From Clostridiaceae bacterium BRH_c20a (lineage in GTDB: Bacteria; Bacillota; Peptococcia; Peptococcales; BICA1-8): DNA of 64,000 bases. The notes below the pieces were generated by a model that ran no database searches, was not told the DNA's origin, and worked only from the letters and a program-made list of their open reading frames with translations. Position numbers and translations under genes: made by a program. This document shows positions 35,284 through 56,781 of the stretch, in pieces; position 1 is the stretch's first letter, and every line of letters starts with the position of its first letter. The stretch covers positions 1 through 64,000 of the forward strand of contig LADT01000001.1 of the NCBI GenBank assembly GCA_000961765.1, given 5' to 3'.

Positions 35284-35355
35284 TTTGGTAATCAACCATT
35301 TTACCGTTTTTCTAAAATGTAAGGTTAAAAATATTCAAAAAGGGAGGTGAATAAT

Positions 35356-36086
35356 GTGATTAAGCTTCATGAATTTAATGTCAATCAAACCTTAAGAGAA
35401 TTAAACCCTACTGATATAAGCTTTTTAAATTTGAGTGGGTATAAATGTTACCATACTCAAGGGATTAATGGACAAAATACTACTATTGCAGTTATTGACA
35501 CCGGCGTTTCTCCCCACATAGAGTTGAGGGGCAAATTACTCCAAGGTAGATCGTTTGTTGATTATACCCGCAGACCTTTTGATGATAATGGTCATGGAAC
35601 CCACGTTGCCGGTACTATAGCCGGTGCCAATGTAGGGGCTGCTCCCGGAGCCCAAATTCTACCTGTTAAAGTTCTAGATGCCGATGGTAATGGTACTCTT
35701 ATGCTTCTATGACTGGAACTTCGATGTCTACTCCTATTGTTTCAGGCATTGCCGCTCTACAGGCAGCAAAATATAAGATAACCTTTAAAGAGCAAATCAG
35801 CGAAGACCAATTGTGGAAATTGATTAAATACAACACTAAAGATCTAGGGATACCGGGTGCTGATAGGGAATACGGGACTGGCTTTGCAACCCTTCAGCCA
35901 CTAGAACTTAAGCTTGAAGCAAAAAACAACGACGATTATTTAAAGATAAATAATGAAATTTATAATCTTGATTCTAAATTCAGCTTTAATGATGGGGTAT
36001 TTGTATTGCCGGGAGGATTAATTGGCAATGTAACAGGAGCTTATATCCAGTACAATGATAAAGATATATTAACATTTGAGTATTAG
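35356..36086 (+). pseudogene. Subtilase paralogue with an internal deletion
   Basis: The first part (from the GTG at 35356) matches the 17.2-kb subtilase through Asp (VIDTGVS), His (NGHGTHVAGT) and DADGNGTL. The reading then stops a few codons later. From about 35700 the frame one base over gives YASMTGTSMSTP with the catalytic serine and a full C-terminal part to 36086. About 117 codons between them are missing and the frame is shifted, so a protease cannot be made in one piece. The N-terminal 118 codons could still be translated. Confidence 0.85.
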
Positions 36087-37535: not shown

Positions 37536-38213
37536 CTAAGCAAATTTTTCTTTATACAAATCCTTATCATATTGAGCCTTACGCCCTGGGCACTTTTCCC
37601 GTGAGCAGAGCTGGCAGTTTTCAAAATTCACTTCCGTAGGGAACCGGAAGCCTGAAACTGATTTAATCGGGTACATTAAGGAACTCTGAGAAAGATTAAC
37701 CCCCACTAACTCAGGTTTGCCTAAAATTGCAAAAAGCTTTGACTGCTCTTGAATTGGCCAATCTTGAAGGGAGCCTGGATTCATTGAAGAGGTATTTCCC
37801 CCGTAAGAGTTTTCTTTAAAGTGTTGAAGAAAGGTCTGTATTGCGACACGCAAAGCCATCTCCTTTATGGCGTCAACCCAAAACTTTTCCAGCATATCCT
37901 CAATTCCCTTTGACCATTCTTCTATTTCCACACCTGAAGTAGCAACATAGGGGAATATCCTATAGGCATCGTTTAAATTAACTCTGAGTACTCTGCTGGT
38001 CAAGGTGATGCCGTCGACAATTACATAATCGTTGCCTCTTTCATCAATAAAAGCCTCTCGATACATTGCCTTAGGCCTGGCAATGCTTTGTGCCTCAGCA
38101 ACCAATATTGTGGCTCTTTCAGCATAGCCGGGTTTATCAGTTACTCGAATGAGCTTCAAAAACTGCTCCAAATTTACCTCAAAAGAGATGCTATCTAATA
38201 CAGTTGGCTCCAT
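37536..38213 (-). CDS. B12-dependent methionine synthase activation-domain-like protein
   Basis: The 225-residue protein resembles the stand-alone activation domain of cobalamin methionine synthase: it has MNPGSLQDWPIQEQSKLFAI and SSLMYPIKSVSGFRF. It ends in a Cys motif CQLCSREKCPGR that could hold a metal or cluster. Such proteins occur in methylamine-type corrinoid clusters, where they may help reductive activation or substrate methyl transfer. The ATG at 38213 follows AGGAGG and overlaps the end of the upstream corrinoid gene, so they are co-translated. Confidence 0.8.
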   Translation of the reverse strand: MEPTVLDSISFEVNLEQFLKLIRVTDKPGYAERATILVAEAQSIARPKAMYREAFIDERGNDYVIVDGITLTSRVLRVNLNDAYRIFPYVATSGVEIEEWSKGIEDMLEKFWVDAIKEMALRVAIQTFLQHFKENSYGGNTSSMNPGSLQDWPIQEQSKLFAILGKPELVGVNLSQSSLMYPIKSVSGFRFPTEVNFENCQLCSREKCPGRKAQYDKDLYKEKFA

Positions 38214-38857
38214 GACTTTACCTCCTGACTCATACATTTATTTACCAAATTAACTGCACTCCTGGCATCAGCCGCATACCCGTCTGCTTTAATCGACTTA
38301 CTATAATCATGGGTAACAGGTCCGCCGCCAACAATTACTTTTACCTGATTCCTAATATTTGCCTGTTCTAGAAGTTTAACTGTGCTTGCCATAATGGGCA
38401 TAGTAGTGGTCAATAGTGCAGACATCCCCAGAACCTGAGGCTTTTGCAGCAAAACAGCTTCCACAAATTCCTCAGGATGAACATCTATTCCCAAATCCAC
38501 AACCTCATAGCCCCTTGATCTAAGAAAAATAATCACCAGATTCTTGCCGATGTCATGTAAATCGCCGGCTACCGTACCAATAGCAATTTTACCTTCTATC
38601 TGTGCAAAGTTTTCTAATAATAACGGCCTGACTACTCGCATCCCGGCATGAACAGCTCGGGAAGAAATTAATACGTCTGGAACATAAAATTCTTCATTAC
38701 TAAAGCGTGCACTAACAATATCCATTCCTACGATTAACCCATGATATAGTATATCAGATGGAGTAGTACCATCAGCCAGTGCTTCATCGACTAGCATTTT
38801 GACCAATGCCGCCTGACCCTCTACCACTGCAACAGCAATTTGTTTTAAATCTCCCAT
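38195..38857 (-). CDS. Corrinoid protein (MtbC/MttC type)
   Basis: The 220-residue protein has the B12-binding helical cap (1-85) and the Rossmann-like domain with DLHDIGKNL, where His101 is the lower cobalt ligand. It carries the methyl group on cobalt between the substrate methyltransferase and the second methyltransferase. It overlaps the activation-domain gene by 19 bases and follows the PocR/AraC regulator. A second corrinoid protein lies at 50.3 kb. Confidence 0.93.
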   Translation of the reverse strand: MGDLKQIAVAVVEGQAALVKMLVDEALADGTTPSDILYHGLIVGMDIVSARFSNEEFYVPDVLISSRAVHAGMRVVRPLLLENFAQIEGKIAIGTVAGDLHDIGKNLVIIFLRSRGYEVVDLGIDVHPEEFVEAVLLQKPQVLGMSALLTTTMPIMASTVKLLEQANIRNQVKVIVGGGPVTHDYSKSIKADGYAADARSAVNLVNKCMSQEVKSWSQLY

Positions 38858-38903
38858 ACTTTTCCCTCCCCTTAAGGACCACAGTTGTCTTGAATGAAAA
38901 TAA

Positions 38904-40223
38904 TTACAATGCGTTTTCCCGATACTGGCTGGGAGTAATCCCTTCGTGTTTTTTAAAAACTTTGGTAAAATAACCGGGATCTTTAAAACCCAAATCGTCG
39001 GCCACTTGAATTACACTATACTTTGGATCATGCAAAAGCTTTTTAGCTTCTTCGATTCTGACTTTAGTCAAAAATTCAATAATCGTGCAGTCCAATTCCT
39101 GTTTAAAAATCTTACTGATATGGCAGGGGCTAAGAAAAACAGCTTTGGCAACATCCTCCACTGTAATCTTCTTTCGGTAATTACTGCGTATAAAATAGCC
39201 TGCTTTTTGGACTACCTGTGAATTACGTACATCTTTTCCTTCCTCCATGCTGTCAATGAAACCTTGAGTAACATGAACTATCCAATGACACAGGTCCTCA
39301 ATGGTATCTAGCTGTGTAAATTCTTCTACATACTGCAAATTTAACGGTAAAAGGGTTTTTAGAACAACACCTCCCTCTACCGGCGCCCTGGAAATTATCA
39401 CCAATAATTGCAAAATCCTAGCTTTTACCTCTTTTGTATCCCCGGAATAACGCTGCAGAATCTCTGCTAAAATTTCGTTTAGCACCCTATATGCCGCTGA
39501 TTTATCACCTTTTCTTACCTGGCAAACTAGCTCCTGCTCTTTTTCCAGGGAATAACCCCTGACGGAGAGATTATCAATTTTCTTAAAAGCCTCTTCTAAT
39601 ATTTTTCTAGCACGTATCTCTTCACCTAACTTTGCCTGCTGCTCACTGATAGCCCTGCGTTGCTTGAGGGTAATCATTCCCGTTTTCGTAACATGATTAG
39701 CAACGAGAAACAGCAAATCTGCAGCTGCTTGGACTCTTTGAGCCGAAAGCACCTCCAGTTTTTTAGCATAATCTATTAACAATTTAACCTCAAGTCCCAA
39801 TCCACGGGTCATATCTTCAATTTCTTCCCAGAAAAAATCCTCTGGCTCCCACATTAAGACCTGCCCACAAACTATTGCACCTAAAAAATCTTCGTCAACA
39901 AGTAAAGGGGCAGCCCAGACAATCAAACCTGCATGACATCTGAAAATATAGGGCTTTCCATATTTACTCGCTTCAATTCCAGCACGGGTATAAGAACGTT
40001 TACATTTAAAAACCCCGTTCTGAGTAGCCCTGACAAGATGGCAAAACTCACAGTACTCCTCTTTGTCGTCAGGTTTAACAAGTAATTCACCCTGAGAATC
40101 TACAATAAATGCCCGCAACCCTGTGGCTTTGGTAAATGAGAACAAAATTTGTTTCAAAATATTTATTTCAGTTATTTCCTGAAGTTTAAGCACACTAACC
40201 TTGTTGATAAACCCTTGTTGCAT
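38904..40223 (-). CDS. PocR-domain AraC-family regulator
   Basis: The 439-residue protein begins with a PocR sensory domain (about 15-180; Cys-rich EEYCEFCHLV and FKCKRSY), found in regulators of corrinoid pathways and propanediol use. It ends with an AraC DNA-binding domain (VEDVAKAVFLSPCHISKIFK and DDLGFKDPGYFTKVFKKHEG). It probably senses the methyl substrate or a related small molecule and controls the surrounding cluster. The ATG at 40223 is preferred, behind AAGAGGTG. All cluster genes share its strand. Confidence 0.9.
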   Translation of the reverse strand: MQQGFINKVSVLKLQEITEINILKQILFSFTKATGLRAFIVDSQGELLVKPDDKEEYCEFCHLVRATQNGVFKCKRSYTRAGIEASKYGKPYIFRCHAGLIVWAAPLLVDEDFLGAIVCGQVLMWEPEDFFWEEIEDMTRGLGLEVKLLIDYAKKLEVLSAQRVQAAADLLFLVANHVTKTGMITLKQRRAISEQQAKLGEEIRARKILEEAFKKIDNLSVRGYSLEKEQELVCQVRKGDKSAAYRVLNEILAEILQRYSGDTKEVKARILQLLVIISRAPVEGGVVLKTLLPLNLQYVEEFTQLDTIEDLCHWIVHVTQGFIDSMEEGKDVRNSQVVQKAGYFIRSNYRKKITVEDVAKAVFLSPCHISKIFKQELDCTIIEFLTKVRIEEAKKLLHDPKYSVIQVADDLGFKDPGYFTKVFKKHEGITPSQYRENAL

Positions 40224-40320
40224 ATCAAACACCTCTTGGCAGGATTCTCATTCCTTAAAAGCTTGCTCATTTCGAATTAATATACATATTCACCACTTCT
40301 TGGAAAAAACCTTTTAAAGT

Positions 40321-40374
40321 AAAAAAAATCACCAATTGGTGGCCGGGAGGAGGTAAACTAGCGCCTCTTCCCGG
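40321..40374 (-). terminator. Terminator of the BCCT gene
   Basis: GCCGGGAGGAGG (40341-40352) and CCTCTTCCCGGC (40363-40374) form a 12-bp stem with one mismatch. On the minus strand it is followed by the palindrome CACCAATTGGTG and seven T. Confidence 0.85.
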
Positions 40375-40392
40375 CAGGTTTTATGCTTTTAT

Positions 40393-41943
40393 TTACATGG
40401 AAACGCCAGGTGATTCCGTTTTTATTGCCTTTTCATTAACTATAATAATCTGCTCATTATTAAATGCCTTCACTAAGGAATAGCACATTAAAACCATAAC
40501 AATCATAAATGGGAATGCAGAGACGATAGAAGCCGTTTGCAGGGCCCCAAGCCCTCCTGCTGCCAGTAATACTGCAGCTACTGCACCTTCGGTGACACCC
40601 CAGAAAACCTTCAAACCCGTTTTTGGTTCCAAGTCCCCACCTGAGGTAAGCATACCCATGACAAAGGTAGCAGAGTCTGCAGACGTTATAAAGAAGGTAG
40701 CAATCAGGAACATTGCCATGGTAGAAATCAGACCTGCCAGCGGTAAGTTATGCAGCATGGCAAATAGCGCTGTAGACATGTTTTCAGAAACCGCTTTAGC
40801 TATTTCAGCCGCGCTGGATACTTCCAAAGAAACAGCTGTTCCTCCCATAATAGAAAGCCAAATAAAGCTCAAAAGAGTTGGAGCAATCAGAACTCCCAGG
40901 ATAAACTCGCGTACGGTCCTACCTTTGGATATCCTGGCAATAAACGCTCCCACAAAAGGTCCCCAGGCAATCCACCAAGCCCAGTAGAAAATTGTCCAAC
41001 CACCGACCCAACCAGGATTGGCACCAAAGGGGTCAGTCCAGAAACTCATCTGGACAATGTTTTGGAGGTAAGTACCCATAGTGTCAGTAAAGATATTAAG
41101 AATATCCCTGGTTGGTCCTAAAAAAAGAACAAAGAGCATAATTATTCCTGCTAAATACATGTTAATATTACTTAAGAGTCTAATCCCTTTATTGATTCCC
41201 GTTACCGCCGAAATAATGAATAAAACTGTCATTACTCCTATAATAACAATAGTTGCACCAGTTGATTCCACAATATTGTAGACATAGTTCAAACCGCTGT
41301 TTATCTGCATCGCACCAAGACCCAAGGAGGTAGCTACCCCGAAAAGTGTGGCAAAAACCGCCAAAATATCCACTGCTTTTCCAATGGGTCCTTTAATTCC
41401 TTCATCACCTAGCAATGGGTGCAGTGTCGAGCTAATTAGAGCAGGAAGCCGTTTGCGAAACTGGAAATATGCAAGGGCCATACCGACTACTCCATAAATA
41501 GCCCAGGGGTGTAACCCCCAATGAAGGAAAACGTAACGCATTGCCATCCCGGCCGATCCAAGAGTATTGCCTTCGCCAAAGGGCGGGCTCGCATAATGAT
41601 ACATGGGTTCAGCAACACTCCAAAATACCAATCCGATACCCATCCCAGCGCTGAATAGCATCGCAAACCAGGACCAAGTACTGTATTCTGGAACATCGTC
41701 GTCTTTACCCAACTTTATTCTGCCATATTTGCTCCATGCCACGACAATGCAAAAAACCAAAAATAGGGCAACAATCAGCATATAAGACCAACCGAAATTG
41801 TCGGTAAAAAATGCCATAGCGGCTCCAAAGGCTTTACCCGCTTGTTCTGGAATTAACGCACCCCACAGCACAAAAACCATAGCGATTATGGCGGAAATAC
41901 CGAAAATGCTCTTGTCAATCTTTCCAAAGAAGCTATTTTTCAT
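40393..41943 (-). CDS. BCCT-family betaine/carnitine/choline transporter
   Basis: The 516-residue carrier has 12 membrane segments and the BCCT hallmark in the middle, GWTIFYWAWWIAWGPFVGAF, with the aromatic box that binds trimethylammonium groups. The GMGIGLVFWSVAEP segment is also typical. It most likely brings in glycine betaine, carnitine, choline or a similar compound that the neighbouring MttB-family enzymes demethylate. The long hydrophilic tail of osmosensing BetP-like carriers is absent, which fits a nutritional role. The ATG follows AAGGAGG. Confidence 0.94.
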   Translation of the reverse strand: MKNSFFGKIDKSIFGISAIIAMVFVLWGALIPEQAGKAFGAAMAFFTDNFGWSYMLIVALFLVFCIVVAWSKYGRIKLGKDDDVPEYSTWSWFAMLFSAGMGIGLVFWSVAEPMYHYASPPFGEGNTLGSAGMAMRYVFLHWGLHPWAIYGVVGMALAYFQFRKRLPALISSTLHPLLGDEGIKGPIGKAVDILAVFATLFGVATSLGLGAMQINSGLNYVYNIVESTGATIVIIGVMTVLFIISAVTGINKGIRLLSNINMYLAGIIMLFVLFLGPTRDILNIFTDTMGTYLQNIVQMSFWTDPFGANPGWVGGWTIFYWAWWIAWGPFVGAFIARISKGRTVREFILGVLIAPTLLSFIWLSIMGGTAVSLEVSSAAEIAKAVSENMSTALFAMLHNLPLAGLISTMAMFLIATFFITSADSATFVMGMLTSGGDLEPKTGLKVFWGVTEGAVAAVLLAAGGLGALQTASIVSAFPFMIVMVLMCYSLVKAFNNEQIIIVNEKAIKTESPGVSM

Positions 41944-42067
41944 AATCTCAACCTCCTTAATTTTTTAAATTTTCTAAATATTCCTCTTGGAATTATGCAC
42001 TAACTTATCTTCCAGCACCTCAAACCTCGCCTCACCTCCTTTTTGCTATTGGGCATTACCCTGCAAG

Positions 42068-43912
42068 CTAAAATTTCCTCTCCTGCCCGAATTGCGGAAA
42101 ATAGATAGCCTCCATAAATTTATCCTGAAAATCTTTCCGTGCTGAAAGTTCAATGTATTTAACGCCATTGGCTATCTCCCAGGCTCTCTCTCTTGCCTCT
42201 TCGGAGATGAGGACAAGCTGAGAACCAACACCTGCGGCATTACCTACAGCTCGAATTCTCTCTAGATCTAAATTAGGAACAAGTCCAATTCGCCATGCAC
42301 TTTCCTTCCTGATGTATGTGCCAAATGCACCTGCTAGCAAAATCTCGGTAATGTCTTGTTCTCGAACACCCAGCTCTTCCAGAAGCACTTGAATTCCTGC
42401 CAGGATAGCGCCTTTTGCTAACTGCAGTTCCCGAATATCCTTTTGGGTAATTAACAGGTCTTCATCCAATCCATTTCCTTCGCGATAGTCCAGAACAAAA
42501 TCAAACCCGCTGGCTCCTGGGATAATACGCTTCCGAATTTGAACCGGAAGATCATTATCCCCTTTCGGATCGGTAATCCTACCAGTATAATCGATTATAC
42601 CTGCCTTGAGCATTTCCGCCACTGCATCAATCAATCCCGAACCACAAATACCTACACTAGGTAATGAATTAATTGTCTGCAGCACTACATCTCCGGTAAT
42701 GTCAACTCTCTCAATTGCACCAGGCGCTGCACGCATCCCGAATTTGATTTGGGCACCTTCAAAGGCTGGTCCCGCTGCGGTTGAACAAGCATAAAGTCCT
42801 TTTTCGGAACCCAATACCAATTCCCCATTTGTACCGATATCTATCGCTAATCTCAGCTCCCTACTTTTGTCCAAACCCGTAGCCAGTATAACTCCTACAG
42901 TATCAGCACCTACAAAACCCGCAATATTGGGAACAATAACACAGTAACCTTCCGGGTTGATCTTTAAGCCCAATTCCTGAGCCCTGATGTCTGCCACTGT
43001 TTTAAAAGCAGGTACGTACGGAGCTCTAGCTAGATAAACTGGACTAACCCCAAGCAGTAAGTGGGTCATTGTCGTATTACCTACTATAGTAATTTCATAT
43101 ATACTTTCCTTTTTTATTCCTGCATCTTCTGACAGCTTGGTAACTATCCCATTTAAAGCAGTTATTACCTTGGACTGTAATGTATAGAGCCCCTGATCCT
43201 CATTATCTACATAGGATATGCGGGAAATAACATCTGCACCATAAACCCGCTGGGGATTTCCCTCCGATTGAGTTGCCAAAACCTCTCCAGTCAAAAGATT
43301 AATGAGGGAACCAACAAGGGTGGTCGTTCCAATGTCGAAAGCAATTCCATACAGCTCAAGGGTGGTATCCCCTGCTTTGAGGGCCACTATTTCGCCCTTA
43401 CGGGCAACCACTGTAACCATGTGTTTATTTTTACGAAGCAAATCAGGGAGCATGCGTAATATTTCAACCTTCATGGGGTAGGAAGCACTCTCATGCAAAG
43501 CACTCCATAATCTTTCCTGGTCGGAAGCCGGCTTTTCCAAAGATGGTACCGGAACTGTAACAGTAAACTTCAAAAGCCTGCCCCGGCGCTCATAGCTTGC
43601 TAATTCTGTTTGCAGCAAACTTTTACGGCTTTCGTCTACTTTAGCTTGTGGGACTATCACTACCATATCCCGATCTACTTCCAGACGACAGGCCAATTTA
43701 CTCTCGCCTTTAATTTCACTGGTTCCGTCAGGATTTATTTCTTGAGAATCAGGATTAGCCACTTCAATTTTACATTTACCACAGGTACCACGGCCGCCAC
43801 AGGGTCCTTCTATATAAATGCCAGCTTCAATCAATGCTTTCATCAAAGTATTGCCTTGGGTTACAGACATTTCTATACCTATAGGCAGAACCTTTACTTT
43901 ATAATTTTTCAT
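42068..43912 (-). CDS. RamA-like corrinoid-activation protein (ferredoxin domain + ASKHA ATPase)
   Basis: The 614-residue protein starts with a 2Fe-2S ferredoxin-like domain (Cys38, Cys44, Cys47 in PCGGRGTCGKC and Cys75). An actin-fold ATPase region with AFDIGTTTLVGSL and AIDIGTNGEL follows, then a C-terminal DUF4445-type domain with LAGAFGTYI. Such proteins reduce inactive Co(II) corrinoid proteins back to Co(I) using ATP. It sits directly beside the MttB, corrinoid and methyl-THF transferase genes. The ATG is at 43912. Confidence 0.93.
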   Translation of the reverse strand: MKNYKVKVLPIGIEMSVTQGNTLMKALIEAGIYIEGPCGGRGTCGKCKIEVANPDSQEINPDGTSEIKGESKLACRLEVDRDMVVIVPQAKVDESRKSLLQTELASYERRGRLLKFTVTVPVPSLEKPASDQERLWSALHESASYPMKVEILRMLPDLLRKNKHMVTVVARKGEIVALKAGDTTLELYGIAFDIGTTTLVGSLINLLTGEVLATQSEGNPQRVYGADVISRISYVDNEDQGLYTLQSKVITALNGIVTKLSEDAGIKKESIYEITIVGNTTMTHLLLGVSPVYLARAPYVPAFKTVADIRAQELGLKINPEGYCVIVPNIAGFVGADTVGVILATGLDKSRELRLAIDIGTNGELVLGSEKGLYACSTAAGPAFEGAQIKFGMRAAPGAIERVDITGDVVLQTINSLPSVGICGSGLIDAVAEMLKAGIIDYTGRITDPKGDNDLPVQIRKRIIPGASGFDFVLDYREGNGLDEDLLITQKDIRELQLAKGAILAGIQVLLEELGVREQDITEILLAGAFGTYIRKESAWRIGLVPNLDLERIRAVGNAAGVGSQLVLISEEARERAWEIANGVKYIELSARKDFQDKFMEAIYFPQFGQERKF

Positions 43913-43929
43913 GGCTAACCCGCCCCTCG

Positions 43930-44010
43930 GAATTATAATGGAGAATTGAGATTAGATAATTGAGAATGGAGAATGACTAATTTATTAATTCTCAATTTTC
44001 AATTTTCAAT
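43930..44010. repeat. AATTGAGAATGG repeats in the operon spacer
   Basis: GGAGAATTGAGA-type units on the left are answered by AATTCTCAATTTTCAATT on the right, so the spacer between the activase gene and the first MttB gene can fold into a hairpin. A similar AATTGAGAATTGAGAG stretch lies between the two transketolase genes (1590-1612). Confidence 0.7.
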
Positions 44011-45420
44011 TGCTTTAATAAAGGCTTGAAGGCTTCTGTCAATACTTACATCAAGCTGGGGTGGCTGGTATTCGTCCAAAATCTGCCGGTATTTCTTTCC
44101 ACTCTCCTCAAGGGCTGTGGGTGACCCTTTCATTTTCCAGTGGTCGTATGTGCCTCTATGACTAATACCTGGTCTCCAAAATTCCCTCTTGTATGTATGT
44201 AAAGTATGATCCTGATCGAGAAAATGCCCTCCTGGGCCAACCTTTTCTATTACTGGTAAAGCCAGAGAAGCTTCGTTAACTTCAATTCCATTTTTTATTC
44301 TTAAAACCATACCGCATAATTCATCATCCATGATGAATTTTTCGTAGGACATGGTCATGTAATATTCGAGTATACCTGCAGCATGCAGTACAAAATTGAT
44401 ACCGCTCTTCACTGTTGTTAACAGGTTCATCATTGATTCCCAACCGGACTGGGCATCAGGAATTTTAGAATCAGTAATCGCTCCCCCGCCCCTAGAGGGT
44501 AAGCCATAATATGCAGCTAACTGTGCTGATCCACTGGTGATTAATGAAGTTTCGGGTGCTCCAATGGCAAGAGAACCGTATCTCATTTCCGTAATAGAGG
44601 AGGCCGCCCCATAGACCACCGGAGCCCCAGGTCTGACCAACTGCACCAGCACTATACCGGTTAGGATTTCTGCATTTTGCATGGCTAAAGTACCGGCAAG
44701 AGATGAAGGAGAGGTAGCCCCAGCCATACCTAGAGATGCAACAATCACAGCTTGCCCTGATTTTGCATATTCCATTAAGGCACCTAACATCCGTTCATCA
44801 AGAATCAACGGTGTAATAGTATTAATTAAACTTATTAGAGCCGGTTTTTCTATTATAGAATGCTCAGGTCCAAACAAAATCTGTACCATGCCGATACTCT
44901 CGTGAGCTTTCTGTGCACCTGAAGCACTGCCCATAAAGCATTTGTCCGAATTTTTGATACATGCATAAATCATTTTGGCAGCTCTGATTTCATTAGGAAG
45001 GTCATTAGGCTCGACTAATACCCCACCTGTCATACTCAGATTTGGACTTGCACCGGCTAATTTGGAAAAATTCTCGTAATCATGAAAGGTGGCTTTGCGC
45101 TTGCCTTTTTCCTGATCAGTCACGAAGGGTGCTCCGTAACCTGGGACAAGAACAGTGTGGGCACCGCCAATTTTCACATTTTTTGCCGGGTTACGGGCAT
45201 GTAAAGTAAATTGCTTTGGTGCATTTTTAAGCTCAGTCTCCATTAATTTTGATGACAAGAAAACACGCTGCCCCTCTACCCGGGCACCTGCTTTTTTAAA
45301 AGTCTCTAAAGCTGGTTCATACCGGACTTCAATCCCAGTGTTTTTTAAAATAGCTAATGTAGTCTCATGTATTAATTCAATATCTTTTTCCGCTAACACT
45401 CTCCAGCAAGGTACAGGCAT
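43999..45420 (-). CDS. MttB-family (trimethylamine/betaine-type) methyltransferase A
   Basis: The 473-residue protein belongs to the MttB superfamily, whose members transfer a methyl group from quaternary amines to a corrinoid protein. It has the conserved KVGPGGHFLDQDHTL segment near residue 405. No in-frame amber codon interrupts it, so it lacks pyrrolysine and groups with MtgB-like enzymes (glycine betaine and related). It differs clearly from the two MttB genes at 48.8 and 51 kb. The ATG follows GGAGGGG. The methyl-THF transferase gene lies 17 bp upstream. Confidence 0.92.
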   Translation of the reverse strand: MPVPCWRVLAEKDIELIHETTLAILKNTGIEVRYEPALETFKKAGARVEGQRVFLSSKLMETELKNAPKQFTLHARNPAKNVKIGGAHTVLVPGYGAPFVTDQEKGKRKATFHDYENFSKLAGASPNLSMTGGVLVEPNDLPNEIRAAKMIYACIKNSDKCFMGSASGAQKAHESIGMVQILFGPEHSIIEKPALISLINTITPLILDERMLGALMEYAKSGQAVIVASLGMAGATSPSSLAGTLAMQNAEILTGIVLVQLVRPGAPVVYGAASSITEMRYGSLAIGAPETSLITSGSAQLAAYYGLPSRGGGAITDSKIPDAQSGWESMMNLLTTVKSGINFVLHAAGILEYYMTMSYEKFIMDDELCGMVLRIKNGIEVNEASLALPVIEKVGPGGHFLDQDHTLHTYKREFWRPGISHRGTYDHWKMKGSPTALEESGKKYRQILDEYQPPQLDVSIDRSLQAFIKAIEN

Positions 45421-45437
45421 TCTAGCCCCTCCTTCTA

Positions 45438-46247
45438 TTACCCACAGGAAACTTCAAAAAGTCCACTACGATGGGCAGTAAGATACTTCATACAGTACTC
45501 ATCCTTACCCAGCAGCGCTTGGGAAGCATAGACAAACCCCATCATCACTTTGTCCAGCGGATCTAAAATATACGCATCCATCCCCATGGCCATGGTTTGA
45601 ATCATGAAAGCCTGATTTAAAATTTTTCTGTTGGGCAAGCCATAGGAGATATTACTTAAACCGCAAATACAGTGAACATTGGGATACATTTTTTTAATTC
45701 CATAAATTGTTTCAAGAACTTCCATCCCAGCTTTATCACCGGTGCTGACCGGTTTAACTAGAGGGTCAAGATAAATGTCGTCTTCTGTCACTCCCGCACT
45801 AGTTAAATCTCCCACCAGCTTTTTGGCAATTTTCAACCGATCCTCTGCTGATTCCGGCATGCCAGAATCATCCATACATAAAGCCACAATTTTAGTCTTA
45901 TACTTGGTTACCAAAGGGAGAATCTGCTGAAACCGTTCTTTCTCCGCCGTAATCGAGTTAATCATGGGCTGTCCGTACTTCACCAAGGATAATCCAACCT
46001 CGATGGCCTTGGGATTGGGGCTGTCTAAACACAACGGTGTGGTAACCTGGGACTGAATAGTTTCCACTAGCCAAGCCATGGTTTCCGGCTCATTAAAAAC
46101 CATCGTACCGCAATTGACGTCAACATAGTTAGCACCCGCAGCTACTTGTTTCTGGGCCATTTCCTTAATAAAAGCTTCGTCCTTACTCTCTACGGCCGGT
46201 TTAATAGCTTTTCTACTGGTATTGATCAATTCACCAACTATGATCAT
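45438..46247 (-). CDS. Methyltetrahydrofolate:corrinoid methyltransferase
   Basis: The 269-residue TIM-barrel protein matches pterin-binding methyltransferases of the AcsE/MtvA/MtgA type: it has IIVGELINTSRK, GANYVDVNCGT, PLCLDSPNP and CGLSNISYGLP. It moves methyl groups between corrinoid proteins and tetrahydrofolate, linking demethylation to the Wood-Ljungdahl pathway. The ATG at 46247 has GAGGAG upstream. It directly precedes MttB-family gene A, forming an A/B pair of methyltransferases. Confidence 0.93.
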   Translation of the reverse strand: MIIVGELINTSRKAIKPAVESKDEAFIKEMAQKQVAAGANYVDVNCGTMVFNEPETMAWLVETIQSQVTTPLCLDSPNPKAIEVGLSLVKYGQPMINSITAEKERFQQILPLVTKYKTKIVALCMDDSGMPESAEDRLKIAKKLVGDLTSAGVTEDDIYLDPLVKPVSTGDKAGMEVLETIYGIKKMYPNVHCICGLSNISYGLPNRKILNQAFMIQTMAMGMDAYILDPLDKVMMGFVYASQALLGKDEYCMKYLTAHRSGLFEVSCG

Positions 46248-46269
46248 TTTATTGTCTCCTCCTCATACA

Positions 46270-46452
46270 TTCTTTGGGGACATCCTGATTGCAGGAAGCA
46301 GGAAGCAGGAGACAAGATGCAGGAAGAACCTATTCGTGTCGTGCCTCTTGCTTCTTGTTTCTTGCCTCATGAATGTGGTGTGTCCCCTTACATTCGTTGG
46401 GGACATTCCTCCAACCCAAGTTGAATCCTCCAATGGAGGTGTGTCCCCTTAC
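46270..46452. repeat. Hairpin repeat elements inside the methyl-transfer cluster
   Basis: TTTGGGGACATCCTG, GGTGTGTCCCCTTAC, GTTGGGGACATTCC and GGAGGTGTGTCCCC mark two tandem units in opposite orientation to those at 4.3 kb. The first contains GCAGGAAGCAGGAAGCAGG and a complementary CTTGCTTCTTGTTTCTTGCC block. Confidence 0.75.
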
Positions 46453-48441
46453 CTATTTAAAAAACTTTTCTTTTACCCCGTTGTCCTCCCATTTGGGACG
46501 CCCTATTGCAATTACTTCTATCCTTGTCTCAACATAGATATCCTGTTTCCAACTTGTACCTGCAGCAGTGTAAACATCATCACAGTTAACTATCAGTTGA
46601 TAATCGGCTGCCCCCGCCTTTTCAGCAGCCAAAATAGCTTTTTCTTTTGCTTGGGCTAGCCCATAATCGCTAGCATCTTTTAAATATATAAAACCCTTAC
46701 GTTGCCAAGGAGCGTGAAGGATAAACCCGCCCTCAGCCCCAGGCTTAATTAGAATTTTAACCTTTTCCACCACTTTACCGGTAGCTGCTCCAATAGCGTT
46801 AGCTATTTCCGCATGCTGTGGAATAATCAACTCAGTATGCAATTTTTCGGCGACTTGCGGCAGGTAAGCTTGGACAGGCGCACCGATTGCTATTATAGGA
46901 AATTTAACCTTAATACTAACCTCTACTGAGTTACATGTTTCAGGGTTTAAGACCTTTTCAACAAAATACATTGCGTCTGGACTGTTTTTAAGCCAGAGAT
47001 TCTTGCCTTCAAAGCTGATAACGCTTTGTATTACAGCCAGACATAGATTGTTAATTATGTTTTCCATTGCGAATTCCAGGAACTCTTTGGCACCTTTCCC
47101 CAGCCGTTTAGCCAAAATCTTTACTCCCAGCCGAGAGGCCTCTTGGTTCCACTCAATATAAGAACCGTTAGCATGGAGAATATCTGTAGGGGTTACCGAT
47201 ATTCTTGCCAACACACCAATATTAACCAGGCGCTCAGGGTTAATCAAATTTGGGTCCTTACCAAGCTTTTTAGCCAGGTAAAAAAGTGAATGGGGTGTTT
47301 TGAGAAGCTTGATAATTTCCTCTTCCGTAGATGTCAAGCTCTCCACTGCTGATTGTTTTAAAAGCATAAAACAGTCAGTAGGCTGGGCAGATAATAAATC
47401 CTGCTCATTTTCTTCTAGTTCCTGTAATTCAGCAACTAAATATGGATAACTAGAAGCCACAACTGACAATGGCCAGACCCTCTGGGGACCTATAATCAGC
47501 TTCTTATCTTTTGTGACTTGCAGATAACTATCCCCACCTAAACCATAGGTATTGATTTCCGCTGCCTGAACTCTTGTCAGCCAGCCGCCTACCATGGCGC
47601 CTTCCTTATTTACCCGCGGTACTCCTTCATGTAAGATTGCAATATCGGTAGTAGTTCCTCCCATATCCAATACTAAAGCTTCTTCCACTGCAGTAATAAA
47701 GGTAGCACCAATAATGCTGGCAGCCGGACCTGATAGGATAGTCTCAATTGGTTTTTCCCGCGCCATAGTTTCACTCATTAAACTGCCATCACCTTTAACA
47801 AGCATCAATGGCGCTTGGATACCCACTTCCTTTAATACTAGCTTGACGGATTCAATCAATTCAGCGATAATCGGGATTAATTTAGCATTAAGAACCGCTG
47901 TGACTGAGCGCTCATGAAAACCGAGGGATGTTGTAAGCTGGTGAGCACATACCACCGGCACTTCTAAAATCTCTTGAACCAAATCCCGTATTAATAATTC
48001 ATGTTCCGGGTTACGGATACTCAGGAAACCCGATACAGCCAACGCGCTGACTTCACCTCTAAAGCTGCTAATCGCCTCACGAGCTGCTTTTAAATCTAGA
48101 CTAGCCAGAGGCCTGCCCTTAATATCGTGCCCACCCCCCAAAACAGTATAATGTTGTACAGGGAGACTTTTAATTGGTTCATGGCCAATTAGTATTAAAC
48201 CAACTTCGGAGCCGCGGCCTTCTACGATAGCATTAGTCGCCAAAGTTGTTGAGAGCGCAACCATCTTGATCGACTTTAAATCTCCAAATCCTAAAGCCTT
48301 GATGCAGTTTCGGATACCAACGGTCAAATCTTCTCTAGTAGTCAATGCTTTAGCTTTTGTTTTAATTATTTGGCTCCCCGGTTCCAAAATTACACCGTCA
48401 GTATAGGTACCTCCTGTATCGATGCCCAACACTAATGACAT
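46453..48441 (-). CDS. Hydantoinase/oxoprolinase (HyuA) family protein
   Basis: The 662-residue protein has the HyuA N-terminal region (GIDTGGTYTDGVI), an actin-like ATPase core (LDMGGTTTDIAILHEG near 265) and a C-terminal domain. HyuA enzymes open hydantoin or oxoproline rings with ATP, usually with a HyuB partner, which is absent here. It sits between methyl-transfer genes, so it may process a cyclic or amide-linked methylated substrate, or serve as another actin-fold corrinoid activase. The ATG lies behind GGAGG. Confidence 0.85.
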   Translation of the reverse strand: MSLVLGIDTGGTYTDGVILEPGSQIIKTKAKALTTREDLTVGIRNCIKALGFGDLKSIKMVALSTTLATNAIVEGRGSEVGLILIGHEPIKSLPVQHYTVLGGGHDIKGRPLASLDLKAAREAISSFRGEVSALAVSGFLSIRNPEHELLIRDLVQEILEVPVVCAHQLTTSLGFHERSVTAVLNAKLIPIIAELIESVKLVLKEVGIQAPLMLVKGDGSLMSETMAREKPIETILSGPAASIIGATFITAVEEALVLDMGGTTTDIAILHEGVPRVNKEGAMVGGWLTRVQAAEINTYGLGGDSYLQVTKDKKLIIGPQRVWPLSVVASSYPYLVAELQELEENEQDLLSAQPTDCFMLLKQSAVESLTSTEEEIIKLLKTPHSLFYLAKKLGKDPNLINPERLVNIGVLARISVTPTDILHANGSYIEWNQEASRLGVKILAKRLGKGAKEFLEFAMENIINNLCLAVIQSVISFEGKNLWLKNSPDAMYFVEKVLNPETCNSVEVSIKVKFPIIAIGAPVQAYLPQVAEKLHTELIIPQHAEIANAIGAATGKVVEKVKILIKPGAEGGFILHAPWQRKGFIYLKDASDYGLAQAKEKAILAAEKAGAADYQLIVNCDDVYTAAGTSWKQDIYVETRIEVIAIGRPKWEDNGVKEKFFK

Positions 48442-48528
48442 GTTACTTCCTCCTAAGCATAACCTTATGATTTCATCCTAAATTCAGGACTTTTTCTATA
48501 TCCTAGGGTTGGAAAACCGGCTGTGATT

Positions 48529-48743
48529 GAAGGCACTGAAAAAGTCTAACAATATGAACAAATACCCAAGATTGTCATTAGGTAAAAAAACTAAGCGATG
48601 TAAACAAAATCGGAACACATGATTTTGATACCCTGCTTACCTGAGCGATAGCGAAGGATCTAGTATTTAAGCGACTTTCAAGATTCTTCATTCCACTTCG
48701 TTTCATTTAGAATGACACGAAATGGGGCTTTTTCAGTGGTCTC
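48529..48743. mobile_element. MITE-like repeat, copy A (215 bp)
   Basis: The ends GAAGGCACTGAAAAAGT and (reversed) GAGACCACTGAAAAAGC are terminal inverted repeats. The 8-bp CTGTGATT is duplicated on both sides (48521-48528 and 48744-48751). The core has GAGCGATAGCGAAGGATC and CATTTAGAATGACACG, related to the copies at 10.3 and 63.4 kb. It codes for nothing and fills most of the gap 48442-48793. Confidence 0.85.
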
Positions 48744-48793
48744 CTGTGATTAAGGGTTGCCAAAAAAGCAGGCAACCACTTAATCCTTTTACC

Positions 48794-50260
48794 TTATACA
48801 ACCGAATTCAGTTTACTTTCTGCCCGCTCAACAACGGCTCTGATCTTTTGTTGAATATCTTTTGGAAGGGGATCTGGTTCATAATTTAAGATAATATCTT
48901 TTACCTTCTCGTTAGCTACTTCAGTCAAAGTCTTACTGCCGGCAGACTGCCACATTTCATAGCGCTGCCTGTTAATGAGCTTAGGATACCAGGTTTCGGT
49001 CTTAAAATGCTTTAAGGTATGATTTTCTGCCAGGAAGTGTCCTCCCGGACCAACCTTATCAATCAAATCAATAGCTAATGTTTCATCATCGACCCGAATC
49101 CCCCGGACTAATCTTCTGGCCATACCAATAATATCATCTGAAATAGTCAAAAGTTCCAGGCTTGCTGTAGACCCATATTCCACGTAACCCACATCGTGGT
49201 TTAAGTTTGGTCCCGACAAGGCGGTCATGGCAATAGACAACGCCGCTTCAATCCCGGCTTGTTCGTCGCAAATACACGAATCAGTGCAACCGGCAGTACC
49301 AAACATGGGTAGCTTTAGATAATGGGCCATATCAGCCAGAGCAGACATCAGCAGGTTGAATTCCGGTGAGCCATAGGAGAAAATAGTAGTACTCATATCC
49401 ATTACGGTAAATACACCGCCCATGATAAAAGGTGCGCCTTCACGGGTGTTTTGGTGTAAAACCAATCCGCTGAGGCTTTCTGCCAAGCCGTTGGTCAATA
49501 CCCCTGCCATTGTTGAAGGAACTGTACCTCCTGCCATAACGCAGGGGGTGTATACTACAGGAAGGGCCTTTTTAGCGGCCAATATTAATTTGGAAGCAGC
49601 TTCCCAAGCATGCTGCAAAGGTGAAATCGGTTCTGCATAAAGGGTCATAATTGGATTTTTACGCAGTTCTTCTTCTCCGCCGGCAATGATTTCACACATT
49701 TCGATAATGTCAGCAAAACCATAAATATCGTGGGCTGTGGTAACAATGGGCTTACCGGTGTTTAATACCTGTGTTTCGAATTGATACCTATCAGAAATCA
49801 ATAAAGGAACATTTTGGACAATCCCCAAAGACATGACAAAATCAAGGTTGGGTAGTGCATCAATAACTTTACATGCCCATCCTACAGATTCTTTAGTAGA
49901 ACGCTTTCTTTCACCGGTAAATGGGTCAATGGTAAAAGGAGTGTCGGAACCTGTACCGAAATAGGCGTTATTACCTTCCAAAAGCACATCTCGGGAACCA
50001 GTACGACTGTTACACAAAGTTACTCTGTGAGGTACGGTCCTCAATGCCCGGTCAACCAGATAAGACGGAATCCTAACTCGATTTCCATCTACATAGCAAC
50101 CGGCTTTTTTCATTATTTGTAAAGCCTCATCATCATGATAAGTAACACCAGTACGCTCCAGTACCTCCTGAGCAGCCAAAAATATCTCTTCACACTGACT
50201 AGGGGAGAGAATGCTTAACATGGTACTGGCATTTGCTTTATAGTTACTTCTAGTTCTCAC
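48794..50260 (-). CDS. MttB-family methyltransferase B
   Basis: The 488-residue protein is a second MttB-superfamily enzyme. It carries DKVGPGGHFLAENHTLKHFK near residue 410 and ALSGPNLNHDVGYVEYGST. There is no amber codon, so it is of the non-pyrrolysine type. It resembles enzyme C (50951) far more than enzyme A. The upstream corrinoid gene lies 28 bp away, so B, its corrinoid protein and C form one block. The ATG is at 50260 behind AAAGGAGAG. Confidence 0.92.
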   Translation of the reverse strand: MRTRSNYKANASTMLSILSPSQCEEIFLAAQEVLERTGVTYHDDEALQIMKKAGCYVDGNRVRIPSYLVDRALRTVPHRVTLCNSRTGSRDVLLEGNNAYFGTGSDTPFTIDPFTGERKRSTKESVGWACKVIDALPNLDFVMSLGIVQNVPLLISDRYQFETQVLNTGKPIVTTAHDIYGFADIIEMCEIIAGGEEELRKNPIMTLYAEPISPLQHAWEAASKLILAAKKALPVVYTPCVMAGGTVPSTMAGVLTNGLAESLSGLVLHQNTREGAPFIMGGVFTVMDMSTTIFSYGSPEFNLLMSALADMAHYLKLPMFGTAGCTDSCICDEQAGIEAALSIAMTALSGPNLNHDVGYVEYGSTASLELLTISDDIIGMARRLVRGIRVDDETLAIDLIDKVGPGGHFLAENHTLKHFKTETWYPKLINRQRYEMWQSAGSKTLTEVANEKVKDIILNYEPDPLPKDIQQKIRAVVERAESKLNSVV

Positions 50261-50288
50261 TTAAATCTCTCCTTTCTTACCCATAAGT

Positions 50289-50921
50289 TTAGCTAATGAG
50301 TCGTTTACAGAGGTCCGTAGCTGAAGCTGCATCAGGAGCAAATCCGTCAGCGCCAATTTCCTCAGCAAAATCATTGGAGATAGGTGCTCCACCAACGATT
50401 ACTTTCACTTTATCTCTCAGACCCTCTTCCTTTAATACCTCAATTGTATCCTTCATGGAAAGCATGGTTGTGGTCAAAAGTGCTGACATTGCAATAATAT
50501 CAGGATTATGATCTTTTACCGCCTGAACAAATTTTTCCGGTGAAACATCCACACCTAAGTTGATAACTACAATTCCCGCACTCTCCATCAGCATACCCAC
50601 CAGATTCTTACCGATATCATGGAGGTCACCTTTGACAGTGCCTATAACTACCTTGCCCGCTGAAGGAATGTCACACTCGGCAATCAGAGGCTTAACTATT
50701 GCCAGACCAGCATTCATAGCCCGTGCCGACATTAATACTTCAGGCACATACATTTCGCCGCTTTTAAAACGCACACCAACAACACCCATGCCTCCAATTA
50801 GACCCTTATTTATAATGTCCAGGGGATCAATACCACTGTCTATATAGTTTTTGGTTAAATCTTTTACTTGCGCTTCATTACCAGTGATCACACTATTGGA
50901 CAATTGTTCAAAGTTAGCCAT
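50289..50921 (-). CDS. Corrinoid protein 2 (MttC type)
   Basis: The 210-residue protein shows the same helical cap and B12 domain as the one at 38.2 kb: DLHDIGKNLVGM with His101 as cobalt ligand and VIVGGAPIS near the nucleotide tail. It lies between two MttB-family genes with short gaps (28 and 29 bp) and is probably their methyl acceptor. The ATG follows GGAGG. Its 3' coding end (DAASATDL) recurs as a remnant at 52.45 kb. Confidence 0.93.
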   Translation of the reverse strand: MANFEQLSNSVITGNEAQVKDLTKNYIDSGIDPLDIINKGLIGGMGVVGVRFKSGEMYVPEVLMSARAMNAGLAIVKPLIAECDIPSAGKVVIGTVKGDLHDIGKNLVGMLMESAGIVVINLGVDVSPEKFVQAVKDHNPDIIAMSALLTTTMLSMKDTIEVLKEEGLRDKVKVIVGGAPISNDFAEEIGADGFAPDAASATDLCKRLIS

Positions 50922-50950
50922 TATTTTTCCTCCATTTCAATTGTTATTTC

Positions 50951-52432
50951 CTATCTTTTTTTGGCAGCTTCCCTAACCTCCGCTCTTTCAATGATAGCCT
51001 TAATTTCTGCCAGTGTTTTTTCCGGTAAGGGTTCTGCTCTGTGGTTATTAATAATATCCTGAGTCTTTTCCTTGACTCGTTGTCCTAAAGTCTTACTTCC
51101 GGTAGCTTTCCACTCATCGTAACGTATCCTGCTTATCAGAGTCGGCCACCAGGTTTCAGTTTTGAAATGTTTCATGGTATGGGCCTCACCCAGGAAATGA
51201 CCTCCTGGTCCAACATTGTCTATAACATCCACAGCCAAGGTTTCATCATTTACTTCAATTCCACGTAAAATCCGCTTGACCATGCCGATAATCTCATCAT
51301 CCATCACCATCAATTCCAGAGAACCGGTAGCTCCATACTCCATATAGTTGCAGTCATGAATAATGTTGGCTCCACTGAGCCCGCCAACCAATATAGAAAA
51401 AGCCGCTTCCAGTGACATCTGAGCATCAATAACCTTTGAATCAGTGCAACCACCGGTGCTAAAGCTTGGAATGTGTAAATAACGAGCAACATTGGACAAC
51501 CCAGCCGACATTAAACTCAACTCGGGTGCTCCATAAGCTAAAATGCTGCTGGACATATCCATGGTTGAGATCAGACCGCCCATAATGAAGCCTGAGCCTT
51601 CACGGACCAATTGCCCCGCGACCAGACCTACTAAACTGTCAGCGACAGAGATTAAAATAGAACCGGCCATTGTGGCAGGGGCTACACCGCCGGCAAAAGT
51701 ACAGGGAGTATAAATTATTGGAATATCATTTCTCGCTGCAAAGATGGCTTTATCGATAGCTTCATCAGAATGACGCAGCGGAGGACTAGATTCTGAATAG
51801 AGAATAATAAACGGGTTATTCTGCAGTTCCTTTATACCACCCCGAACTGCTGCCGCCATATCCACAATATCCTGGTACTGGTCAACTCCGAAACCCCAGT
51901 GGATAATCGGCTTGGTGGTATTAGTTACCAAAGCCTCAAAACCATGTACGTCAGCCAGAGTAGGCGTCACGTCCATAGGAGTACCATTATCCATTGCGTA
52001 ATCAATATTGGGAAGTGCATCACAAACAATACCTGCCCGAACTGTATCAGATATTTTAGGTCTCCTTCTCTCACCGGTAAACGGGTCAAGGGTATAAGTG
52101 TTGGTAGGCCCAGGACCATAATAAACATTATTTCCTTCTAAAAACATTGAGCGTTTCCCATTACGGTCACTAATAGCAATCCGAGAAGGAGCAGTTCTTA
52201 CCGCCCATTCCACCAAACGCGAAGGAAAACGAACCCTGTTACCCTCTACACGACAACCGCCCTTAGCAAATAGCTCCAATGCTTCTTTGCTGTAAACGTC
52301 CGCACCGGTTCTTTCCAAAGCTTCAAGGGCACCATTATAAATTTCCTCACACTGAGCATCACTTAACACCTTAAACTGAGGAGTCTGGTTCACTTCGAAA
52401 TTTGCCCTGACATATGAACTTTGACTAGTCAA
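50951..52432 (-). CDS. MttB-family methyltransferase C
   Basis: The 493-residue protein is a third MttB-superfamily enzyme, close to B (both have ERTGAD/ERTGVT, TLDPFTGERRR/TIDPFTGERKR and NVGPGGHFLGEAHTMKHFK-type motifs). No amber codon is present. The likely start is TTG at 52432, with GGAG about 9 bases upstream. It begins the 15-kb run of minus-strand methyl-transfer genes. The substrate is unknown; B and C may act on the same class or form a pair on one corrinoid protein. Confidence 0.92.
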   Translation of the reverse strand: MTSQSSYVRANFEVNQTPQFKVLSDAQCEEIYNGALEALERTGADVYSKEALELFAKGGCRVEGNRVRFPSRLVEWAVRTAPSRIAISDRNGKRSMFLEGNNVYYGPGPTNTYTLDPFTGERRRPKISDTVRAGIVCDALPNIDYAMDNGTPMDVTPTLADVHGFEALVTNTTKPIIHWGFGVDQYQDIVDMAAAVRGGIKELQNNPFIILYSESSPPLRHSDEAIDKAIFAARNDIPIIYTPCTFAGGVAPATMAGSILISVADSLVGLVAGQLVREGSGFIMGGLISTMDMSSSILAYGAPELSLMSAGLSNVARYLHIPSFSTGGCTDSKVIDAQMSLEAAFSILVGGLSGANIIHDCNYMEYGATGSLELMVMDDEIIGMVKRILRGIEVNDETLAVDVIDNVGPGGHFLGEAHTMKHFKTETWWPTLISRIRYDEWKATGSKTLGQRVKEKTQDIINNHRAEPLPEKTLAEIKAIIERAEVREAAKKR

Positions 52433-52807: not shown

Positions 52808-52838
52808 AAAAAACTACAAGTAAATTACTTGTAGTTTT
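52808..52838 (-). terminator. Terminator of the exported unknown protein gene
   Basis: AAAACTACAAG and CTTGTAGTTTT form a perfect stem with a small loop, flanked by A and T runs. Apart from this hairpin and the remnant at its start, the gap 52433-52901 shows nothing I recognise. Confidence 0.85.
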
Positions 52839-53666: not shown

Positions 53667-54974
53667 TTAATATTTATTTTTATTATTATAAATATCATTA
53701 ACACATAAAACATCCCAGTATTCAATAATTTGATTTAAAATACAATGAGTATCCTCGGGATGTCCATCATGGGTGCAGTAATATACATGGCTGGCTTCAT
53801 GCCGGGTTGTATCCCAATCAAATTCAAAATACTCTGTATCTTTTACAATCATTTCATCTGCCCCGGCATAGGGAACAAGTCCCACGTATCCGTCACTGGT
53901 AGTCTGAGTAGTAAATACCATTTTTACCTGTTCAGGTGCAGTAGTCTCTACGATAGCTTCCTGAAGAAGTTCTGATAAAGTTGTGAGGCTGTTATCAGAA
54001 TCCCAGGCTACGTAATAATTTACATTGTACTGTATTCCAAAGTCACTTTCAAAACCTTCACCAGCTTGACTGACCAATTCTGTAATTCTATTCTGCCAAT
54101 TATCACCATATCTTGTTCTGAATTCTTCATCGGCAACTGCTTGAACACTTACCGGAATTATACCTACCGGAGAAGATACTTTTGTTACCCCTAATTTATA
54201 CTGTGCAGTACCATTTGACCAGCTATAATTATTAACTAAAATTCTGTATGTACCGGTAGAATTTGCAGTATATGCTATTCGTTCGGCACTTGTCTGCCCG
54301 TTTATAGACCTATCAACAAAAACACCCGAGTCATCATATAAAAATAAGTCGTAGTCATCAGGTAAGCTATAAAGATCAATAAAAATTTTGTCGCCGCTAT
54401 TTATATCAAGTACATACCAATCATGGTCATATTCATTGTCTAAGGTTGCGGTATGTTGGGTATCTCCAGGTGTTAACTGATAAGCAAAATGCAAGCTGTC
54501 ATTAGGCTCATAATTATCATAGGAATATGAGTAATGTGTGTAGAGTCTATAATTTTCTGAAGGATTATAACCAGTATAAGTAACTATTCTGATAAAATAA
54601 AAACCTTCCGCATCTTCATGGCTCAAAACCTCATAATGGTCACCATTATAAAGAGAATAACTTTCCAAACTTAACGTAGTATCCTCCAGCTTATAAAAAT
54701 ATACATCATAATCACAACCTGATGGAATATTTTCTAAATATACAGTTAGCTTTCCAAAATCATCTGAATAAAAGTAGTACCAATCTTCATCTTCAGCAGT
54801 TCCAATATTCCCTTCTATCCAGTTTCCTATAGTAATATTTGTTGCGTTGCTCGGATCATCATTCGGTTCTGTTTCTGTAGAAGCTAAGGTAAAAAACTCC
54901 TGGGTTCTTTCATCCCCATCACCCCTTTCTCGTAAATTAAAAAAACGGAGGCAAAATGTACTAATGTCGTACAT
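53667..54974 (-). CDS. PPC-domain protein with metzincin-like zinc motif
   Basis: The 435-residue frame has two pre-peptidase C-terminal (PPC) beta domains (about 35-145 and 155-260; EPNDDPSNATNITIG and YEPNDSLHFAYQLTPGDTQH). The C-terminal domain carries HEASHVYYCTHD at 392-403, an HExxHxxxxxH zinc motif like metzincin proteases. PPC domains normally belong to secreted proteins, yet no signal peptide is encoded. The ATG at 54974 lies inside a terminator hairpin, with GGAGG 6 bases before it. The N-terminus is therefore doubtful and the gene may be 5'-truncated. Confidence 0.7.
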   Translation of the reverse strand: MYDISTFCLRFFNLRERGDGDERTQEFFTLASTETEPNDDPSNATNITIGNWIEGNIGTAEDEDWYYFYSDDFGKLTVYLENIPSGCDYDVYFYKLEDTTLSLESYSLYNGDHYEVLSHEDAEGFYFIRIVTYTGYNPSENYRLYTHYSYSYDNYEPNDSLHFAYQLTPGDTQHTATLDNEYDHDWYVLDINSGDKIFIDLYSLPDDYDLFLYDDSGVFVDRSINGQTSAERIAYTANSTGTYRILVNNYSWSNGTAQYKLGVTKVSSPVGIIPVSVQAVADEEFRTRYGDNWQNRITELVSQAGEGFESDFGIQYNVNYYVAWDSDNSLTTLSELLQEAIVETTAPEQVKMVFTTQTTSDGYVGLVPYAGADEMIVKDTEYFEFDWDTTRHEASHVYYCTHDGHPEDTHCILNQIIEYWDVLCVNDIYNNKNKY

Positions 54975-55249: not shown

Positions 55250-55335
55250 TTCTTTCGGCAACCCGGCGACCATAGCTTTTGCTTTAGGCCCGTAGCTTTG
55301 CGTCCCTAGTTTTCACTAAGTTTGCCTTTTTCTTA
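55250..55335 (-). promoter_or_regulatory. Cyclic di-GMP-I (GEMM-I) riboswitch
   Basis: The minus strand reads GGCAAACTTAG, then GGGACGCAAAGC, GGGCCTAA and ATGGTCGCCGGGTTGCCG in the right order and spacing. These are the invariant blocks of the c-di-GMP-I aptamer, including the GAAA tetraloop side and its receptor. It controls the genes on the minus strand below it. The remainder of the gap up to 55541 shows nothing else I recognise. Confidence 0.95.
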
Positions 55336-56759: not shown

Positions 56760-56781
56760 ATCAAATCGCTCCTCAATATCA

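Follow-up and report, generated by a model that had tools for sequence, protein, structure and literature searches.

A minus-strand gene cluster with three pyrrolysine-free MttB-family proteins and a candidate two-step route for glycine betaine demethylation in Clostridiaceae bacterium BRH_c20a

Gene content and layout of the cluster

Glycine betaine is a common salt-stress compound, and the supply of methylamines to methanogens in anoxic sediment depends on its breakdown. Here we describe a gene cluster of Clostridiaceae bacterium BRH_c20a that very probably lets this anaerobe import glycine betaine and remove methyl groups from it. The cluster lies at positions 37536-52432 of the window, the whole 64,000-nucleotide stretch of DNA analysed (contig LADT01000001.1 of assembly GCA_000961765.1; contig 36 of the 92 that make up the 4.51 Mb source genome). 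A preliminary description of the locus had counted twelve genes on the same strand; we count 11, all on the minus strand. Every part that it named was found (three MttB-family proteins, two corrinoid proteins, a methyl-tetrahydrofolate (methyl-THF) methyltransferase, a RACo/RamA-type activase, a BCCT carrier and a PocR/AraC regulator), and the two genes it had left unnamed encode a HydA-like ATPase and a MetH-activation-like protein. From the upstream end down, the features are (aa, amino acids):

52810-52838, minus: hairpin resembling an intrinsic terminator, upstream of gene C; 13-pair stem, then a T run
50951-52432, minus: MttB-superfamily protein C, 493 aa; start codon TTG; leads the cluster
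50289-50921, minus: corrinoid protein 1, B12-binding, 210 aa; encoded between genes C and B; GDLHDIG motif
48794-50260, minus: MttB-superfamily protein B, 488 aa; C240, C325, H355, D356
46453-48441, minus: hydantoinase/oxoprolinase-like (HydA-like) ATPase, 662 aa; PF05378 and PF01968, without a HyuB partner
45438-46247, minus: methyl-THF:corrinoid methyltransferase of MtgA/MeTr type, 269 aa; NF005719, 373.9 bits (cut-off 259); PDB relatives 4o0q and 2yci
43999-45420, minus: MttB-superfamily protein A, 473 aa; predicted glycine betaine methyltransferase of the MtgB clade
42068-43912, minus: RACo/RamA-type reductive activator of corrinoid proteins, 614 aa; RACo_C_ter, Raco_middle and Fer2; PDB 3zyy, E 1.7e-122
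40393-41943, minus: BCCT carrier, predicted glycine betaine uptake type, 516 aa; PF02028; NF047988, 751 bits (curated equivalog cut-off 650)
40233-40392, minus: probable terminator in the gap between the BCCT and PocR genes; strong GC-rich hairpin, then CACCAATTGGTG and T8 (from sequence and fold)
38904-40232, minus: PocR-domain AraC-family regulator, 442 aa; PF10114 and PF12833
38195-38857, minus: corrinoid protein 2, 220 aa; PF02310 and PF02607, B12-binding
37536-38237, minus: MetH-activation-domain-like protein, 233 aa, Cys-rich tail; PF02965, 23 bits, under the cut-off of 25

Proteins A, B and C are the only PF06253 (MttB) proteins of the genome, and all three are full length (545.6 bits for A, 338.5 for C and 338 for B against a cut-off of 25, with full-length coverage). 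The hairpin upstream of gene C is the probable 5' boundary of the cluster. Because of this hairpin, and of the hairpin with its CACCAATTGGTG-T8 tail between the BCCT and PocR genes, the cluster is likely to be more than one transcript, at least two. A gap of 352 bases between the B gene and the HydA-like gene points the same way. Riboswitch control was considered and rejected, as no Rfam model matched inside the cluster. Between the HydA-like gene and the MtgA-type gene, positions 46248-46452 contain short direct and inverted repeats, GTAAGGGGACACACC and GGGGACAT, perhaps a small repetitive element.

Enzyme A and the carrier point to glycine betaine

The preliminary description had noted that A is distant from B and C, and had taken this to mean that at least two substrates, or a two-step demethylation, were likely. 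Protein A is 31% identical to each of B and C, which are 48.5% identical to each other, and it matches MtgB of Desulfitobacterium hafniense (2QNE, 9YCE) at 585 bits and 55% identity. We ran the phylogeny that had been proposed, anchored by MtgB and pyrrolysine-MttB (MtcB, MtpB, MtyB and MthB are not among its rows). Protein A was placed inside a 27-row clade with MtgB 2QNE (support 100/100), whereas B and C were sister clades inside a 51-row clade, also at 100/100, outside both the MtgB clade and pyrrolysine-MttB, so that the three proteins do not belong to one clade. The expectation of two substrates or two steps is thus supported, and it is strengthened by the linkage to sarcosine reductase in other genomes described below.

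The active-site cavity of MttB is ringed by Met249, Pyl334 and Tyr364 (PMC9842639). At the first two of these positions A has Leu and Ile and MtgB has Leu and Leu, a Leu/Ile-type signature common to both. Together with a BCCT carrier that scores above its glycine betaine cut-off, the placement of A in the MtgB clade makes glycine betaine the natural first substrate to propose. The substrate, which the preliminary description had given as unknown, can therefore be suggested for A and, from a cluster of the same gene order induced by glycine betaine in another bacterium (see below), for the entire cluster; the earlier wording holds only for B and C, each taken by itself. The route that it had envisaged, from import through demethylation to methyl-THF, is supported by the gene content and by an acetyl-CoA synthase gene (Wood-Ljungdahl pathway) in the genome.

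Enzymes B and C carry a Cys-Cys and His-Asp signature

All three proteins are pyrrolysine-free, as had been claimed. The position of Pyl334 is occupied by Ile in A and by Cys in both B and C, with no in-frame UAG there, and PylS had no match above cut-off in the genome (best 29 versus 178 bits). Proteins B and C are each about 29% identical to MtgB and 30-33% identical to pyrrolysine-MttB. Both have Cys at the Met249 and Pyl334 positions (C240 and C325 in B), a Cys-Cys pair in place of the Leu-Leu/Ile of the MtgB type, and both have a His-Asp motif. In a wider alignment, where B-like and C-like groups were set by identity to the window proteins, the cysteine pair is complete in 31 of 40 B-like rows and in 24 of 36 C-like rows, and His-Asp is present at 355/356 in 39 of 40 and 31 of 36, respectively. 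His355 had to be rejected as specific to B and C, because in a careful alignment every non-pyrrolysine enzyme compared has His at that position; the Asp that follows is the only B/C-specific part of the motif, and a few others have it too. The residues at MttB 110/111 were dropped as well, since their alignment changed from one method to another.

An AlphaFold model of B (pLDDT 91.8) matches the folds of MtgB and MttB with TM scores of 0.91-0.94, the value for the pyrrolysine-MttB of Methanosarcina barkeri (7XCL) being 0.94. Within this common fold, the pocket cysteines and the His-Asp of B and C are predicted to sit where the M. barkeri enzyme has Met249, Pyl334 and Tyr364, with His in place of Tyr364. 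The substrates named in PMC12155760 for non-pyrrolysine MttB enzymes are quaternary amines, and the demethylation of methylamines uses pyrrolysine; in the literature searched we found no biochemistry of Cys-Cys/His-Asp enzymes like B and C. We suggest, tentatively and with the balance of probability against it, that B (and C) may be pyrrolysine-independent methyltransferases of dimethylglycine, a tertiary amine, in which the amine would be activated by the Cys pair and His-Asp, perhaps through a bound metal such as zinc. Should this hold, B would handle a tertiary amine without pyrrolysine and so provide a second answer to the difficulty that trimethylamine enzymes overcome with pyrrolysine.

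Among relatives of the B/C pair, the signature is sometimes lost in one member. The C relatives of loci L071, L098, L100 and L101 have lost both cysteines and the Asp, with the adjoining B-type gene intact; the C relative in L084 is without His-Asp and its paired B retains the signature; and in genome G367 (L072) it is B that is degenerate and C that is intact, so that the loss usually falls on C and once on B. This hints at partnership or redundancy, and the C-type proteins of the first four loci are possibly non-catalytic partners. One could go further and regard B and C as a single heteromeric enzyme for which one active site is enough, a variant compatible with a two-step pathway, given that the two genes mostly lie side by side and share a single corrinoid protein. 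We think this rather unlikely, as no C adjoins B in clusters L091 and L092, MttB itself forms a homo-hexamer (PMC9842639) and the pattern of losses could be plain redundancy.

Comparison with known clusters

In 'Candidatus Formimonas warabiya', the cluster Ga0180325_114734-114742 has the order CoP-MTI485-CoP-MTI488-HydA668-MTII265-MTI471-BCCT-BCCT (CoP, corrinoid protein), and all of these proteins were at higher levels with glycine betaine than with dichloromethane, the rise being strong (PMC9768040). Like the window, it has three MttB-family MTIs, with lengths close to those of C, B and A, and the order MTI-CoP-MTI-HydA-MTII-MTI plus BCCT is present in both, a comparison made on gene order and lengths and not residue by residue on the DCMF sequences. 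The window differs in having no corrinoid protein before the first MTI and one BCCT carrier instead of two, as well as in its additional RACo, PocR, downstream corrinoid protein and MetH-activation-like genes and in a genome without sarcosine reductase. Per glycine betaine, 'Ca. Formimonas warabiya' yields roughly 1 monomethylamine and 2.3 acetate; trimethylamine, dimethylamine and sarcosine were not detected. It also grows on dimethylglycine (PMC8163858), and on these grounds a pathway was proposed in which two demethylations give sarcosine, which is then cleaved reductively. Anaerobic demethylation of dimethylglycine is inferred from cultures, and the authors of the proteomic study annotated all three MTIs as MtgB and left the enzyme acting on dimethylglycine unassigned (PMC9768040).

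Other known systems contain one half of the cluster or the other. The MtgB of D. hafniense, which works with MtgA and MtgC, has in common with the window the clade of A, the MTII and a corrinoid protein, but its cluster is reported as the MtgB half alone and B and C have no counterpart there. Sporomusa ovata and 'Ca. Frackibacter' have MTI-CoP-MTI-HydA-MTII clusters, the B/C half only (PMC9768040, Fig. 5B), so that by published synteny alone they share this half and the HydA-like gene with the window and lack the MtgB half. MtcB, MtyB, MtpB and MthB of Eubacterium limosum likewise belong to the non-pyrrolysine MttB superfamily and feed THF, with other substrates. Among the relatives that we fetched, the core C-CoP-B-HydA-MtgA recurs in most.

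Members of the MttB superfamily are known to have diverged in their substrates (PMC8604678, PMC12155760), and B and C might act on another methylated compound (proline betaine, carnitine, choline phosphate or a tertiary amine such as trimethylamine) and be merely clustered with A. Their position outside both characterised clades of our tree would fit this, as would B/C clusters that stand apart from A, such as that of G166, whose MtgB-type gene is about 47 kb away. We nevertheless regard it as very unlikely: the whole syntenic Formimonas cluster is induced by glycine betaine (PMC9768040), the carrier is of the glycine betaine class, choline kinase is not among the cluster genes, and MtgB-type relatives of A (47-62% identity) are found in nearly all B-bearing genomes, the exceptions seen being G055 and G383.

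Linkage to sarcosine reductase suggests a second demethylation

In four genomes (G166, G367, G363 and G053) GrdG/GrdF genes adjoin the B/C cluster, with the sarcosine type as the best or near-best model: the alpha subunits best match sarcosine-type GrdG, and the beta subunits are nearest to sarcosine GrdF or to the general family. In G166, the nearest relative (L083 and L152, 1884001-1917000), these sarcosine-type reductase genes are the immediate neighbours of the cluster, which is present there in rearranged form. This linkage argues for a second demethylation and would be consistent with activity of B/C on dimethylglycine.

We therefore lean towards the view that the cluster encodes two-step glycine betaine catabolism, in which A would produce dimethylglycine, B with C would produce sarcosine, and the methyl groups would pass to THF. 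The BCCT carrier would bring in glycine betaine, and A would methylate a Co(I) corrinoid protein, leaving dimethylglycine. B, paired with C or partly redundant with it, would then probably convert dimethylglycine to sarcosine via corrinoid protein 1. The MtgA-type enzyme would hand the methyl groups to THF, from where they would enter the Wood-Ljungdahl pathway, and oxidised cobalt would be re-reduced by the RACo-type activase, perhaps aided by the MetH-activation-like protein. The PocR/AraC protein is the likely regulator.

Several observations weigh against this two-step pathway. The GrdG/GrdF scores are all under the strict NCBIfam cut-offs for sarcosine. GRDB is absent from the source genome (G000), as judged with the model that found it in 15 of the 30 genomes searched, and about half of the relatives likewise are without it; the source genome also contains no FAO_M (dimethylglycine-dehydrogenase-type) domain. 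Any sarcosine formed would consequently have to leave the cell or enter another route. Both corrinoid proteins have the MtgC type as their top NCBIfam match, but at scores below the MtgC cut-offs (244.6 for protein 1 and 228.7 bits for protein 2 versus 370, and 222.2 and 157.9 versus 310, for NF047995/NF047996). Finally, given the presence of the B/C half alone in S. ovata and 'Ca. Frackibacter', glycine betaine itself may be a substrate of B or C.

These same gaps in the source genome, together with the clusters that lack an MtgB half and the MtgB annotation of all three Formimonas MTIs (PMC9768040), would suit a single demethylation, in which A, B and C would all use glycine betaine and replace or duplicate one another, serving for instance different concentrations or corrinoid proteins, and dimethylglycine would be exported. 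We consider this unlikely, because B and C are just 29% identical to MtgB and differ from it at the Met249 and Pyl334 positions, four genomes have a sarcosine-type reductase linked to their B/C clusters, and the Formimonas stoichiometry requires two demethylations (PMC8163858). We thus find the two-step pathway plausible and on firmer ground than before; the part that invites testing is the enzymology of B and C. With its conserved Cys-Cys-His-Asp and its linkage to sarcosine reductase, the B/C subfamily offers a concrete, directly assayable candidate for the dimethylglycine demethylase.

The HydA-like ATPase and corrinoid reactivation

Across 398 genomes, the HydA-like protein is present in 19 of the 22 with B and in 7 of the 376 without it (Fisher p ~7e-24, for genomes that are related to one another). 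Its model reaches a TM score of about 0.6 to both N-methylhydantoinase and acetone carboxylase beta, folds that it fits instead of a RACo-type activator; a RACo-type gene is already in the cluster, and this role was rejected. A role as a substrate-activating ATPase specific to B and C was weakened because CoP-HydA-MtgA adjoins an MtaB gene in G090 and stands without an adjoining MttB gene in G135 and G236, and because HydA is in some cases an orphan. The G090 locus (L155, 8293-17851) comprises a corrinoid protein, HydA-like, MtgA-type, MtaB methanol methyltransferase, PocR, a second corrinoid protein and a RamA-type gene, and no MttB was matched in that genome with B as the query. The HydA-like protein thus seems to be associated with the corrinoid/THF methyl-transfer module and not with one substrate, and we propose, with low confidence, that it is an ATP-dependent helper of the corrinoid protein. 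As for the MetH-activation-like protein, a 48% identical homologue adjoins a RamA gene in L100 and L112, and it is perhaps a partner in corrinoid reactivation.

Origin of the cluster and neighbouring features

PF06253 genes are uncommon in the window's class, with just 6 of 46 genomes having any. The protein nearest to C, in C's own clade, is that of G166 (86% identity), and the B clade includes G166 (92%) and Desulfosporosinus; the closest named relatives of gene C are from Acididesulfobacillus, Desulfosporosinus and Peptococcaceae. The rarity of such genes in this class and the presence of the closest B/C relatives in other lineages make horizontal acquisition of the cluster likely.

Elsewhere in the window, genes for a glycolate-oxidase-like FAD subunit and an Fe-S (CCG) subunit (55542-58400, minus) are split across several frames and so look decayed, and a subtilase gene (35347-36086, plus) is in two pieces in different frames. 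A c-di-GMP-I riboswitch (55254-55336, minus; 85.3 bits) precedes the gene of a predicted metallopeptidase (53667-54974; M12 type, PPC domain) on its upstream side, and an Rfam 'pan' motif (29170-29262, plus; 54.3 bits) lies upstream of an open reading frame at 29387.

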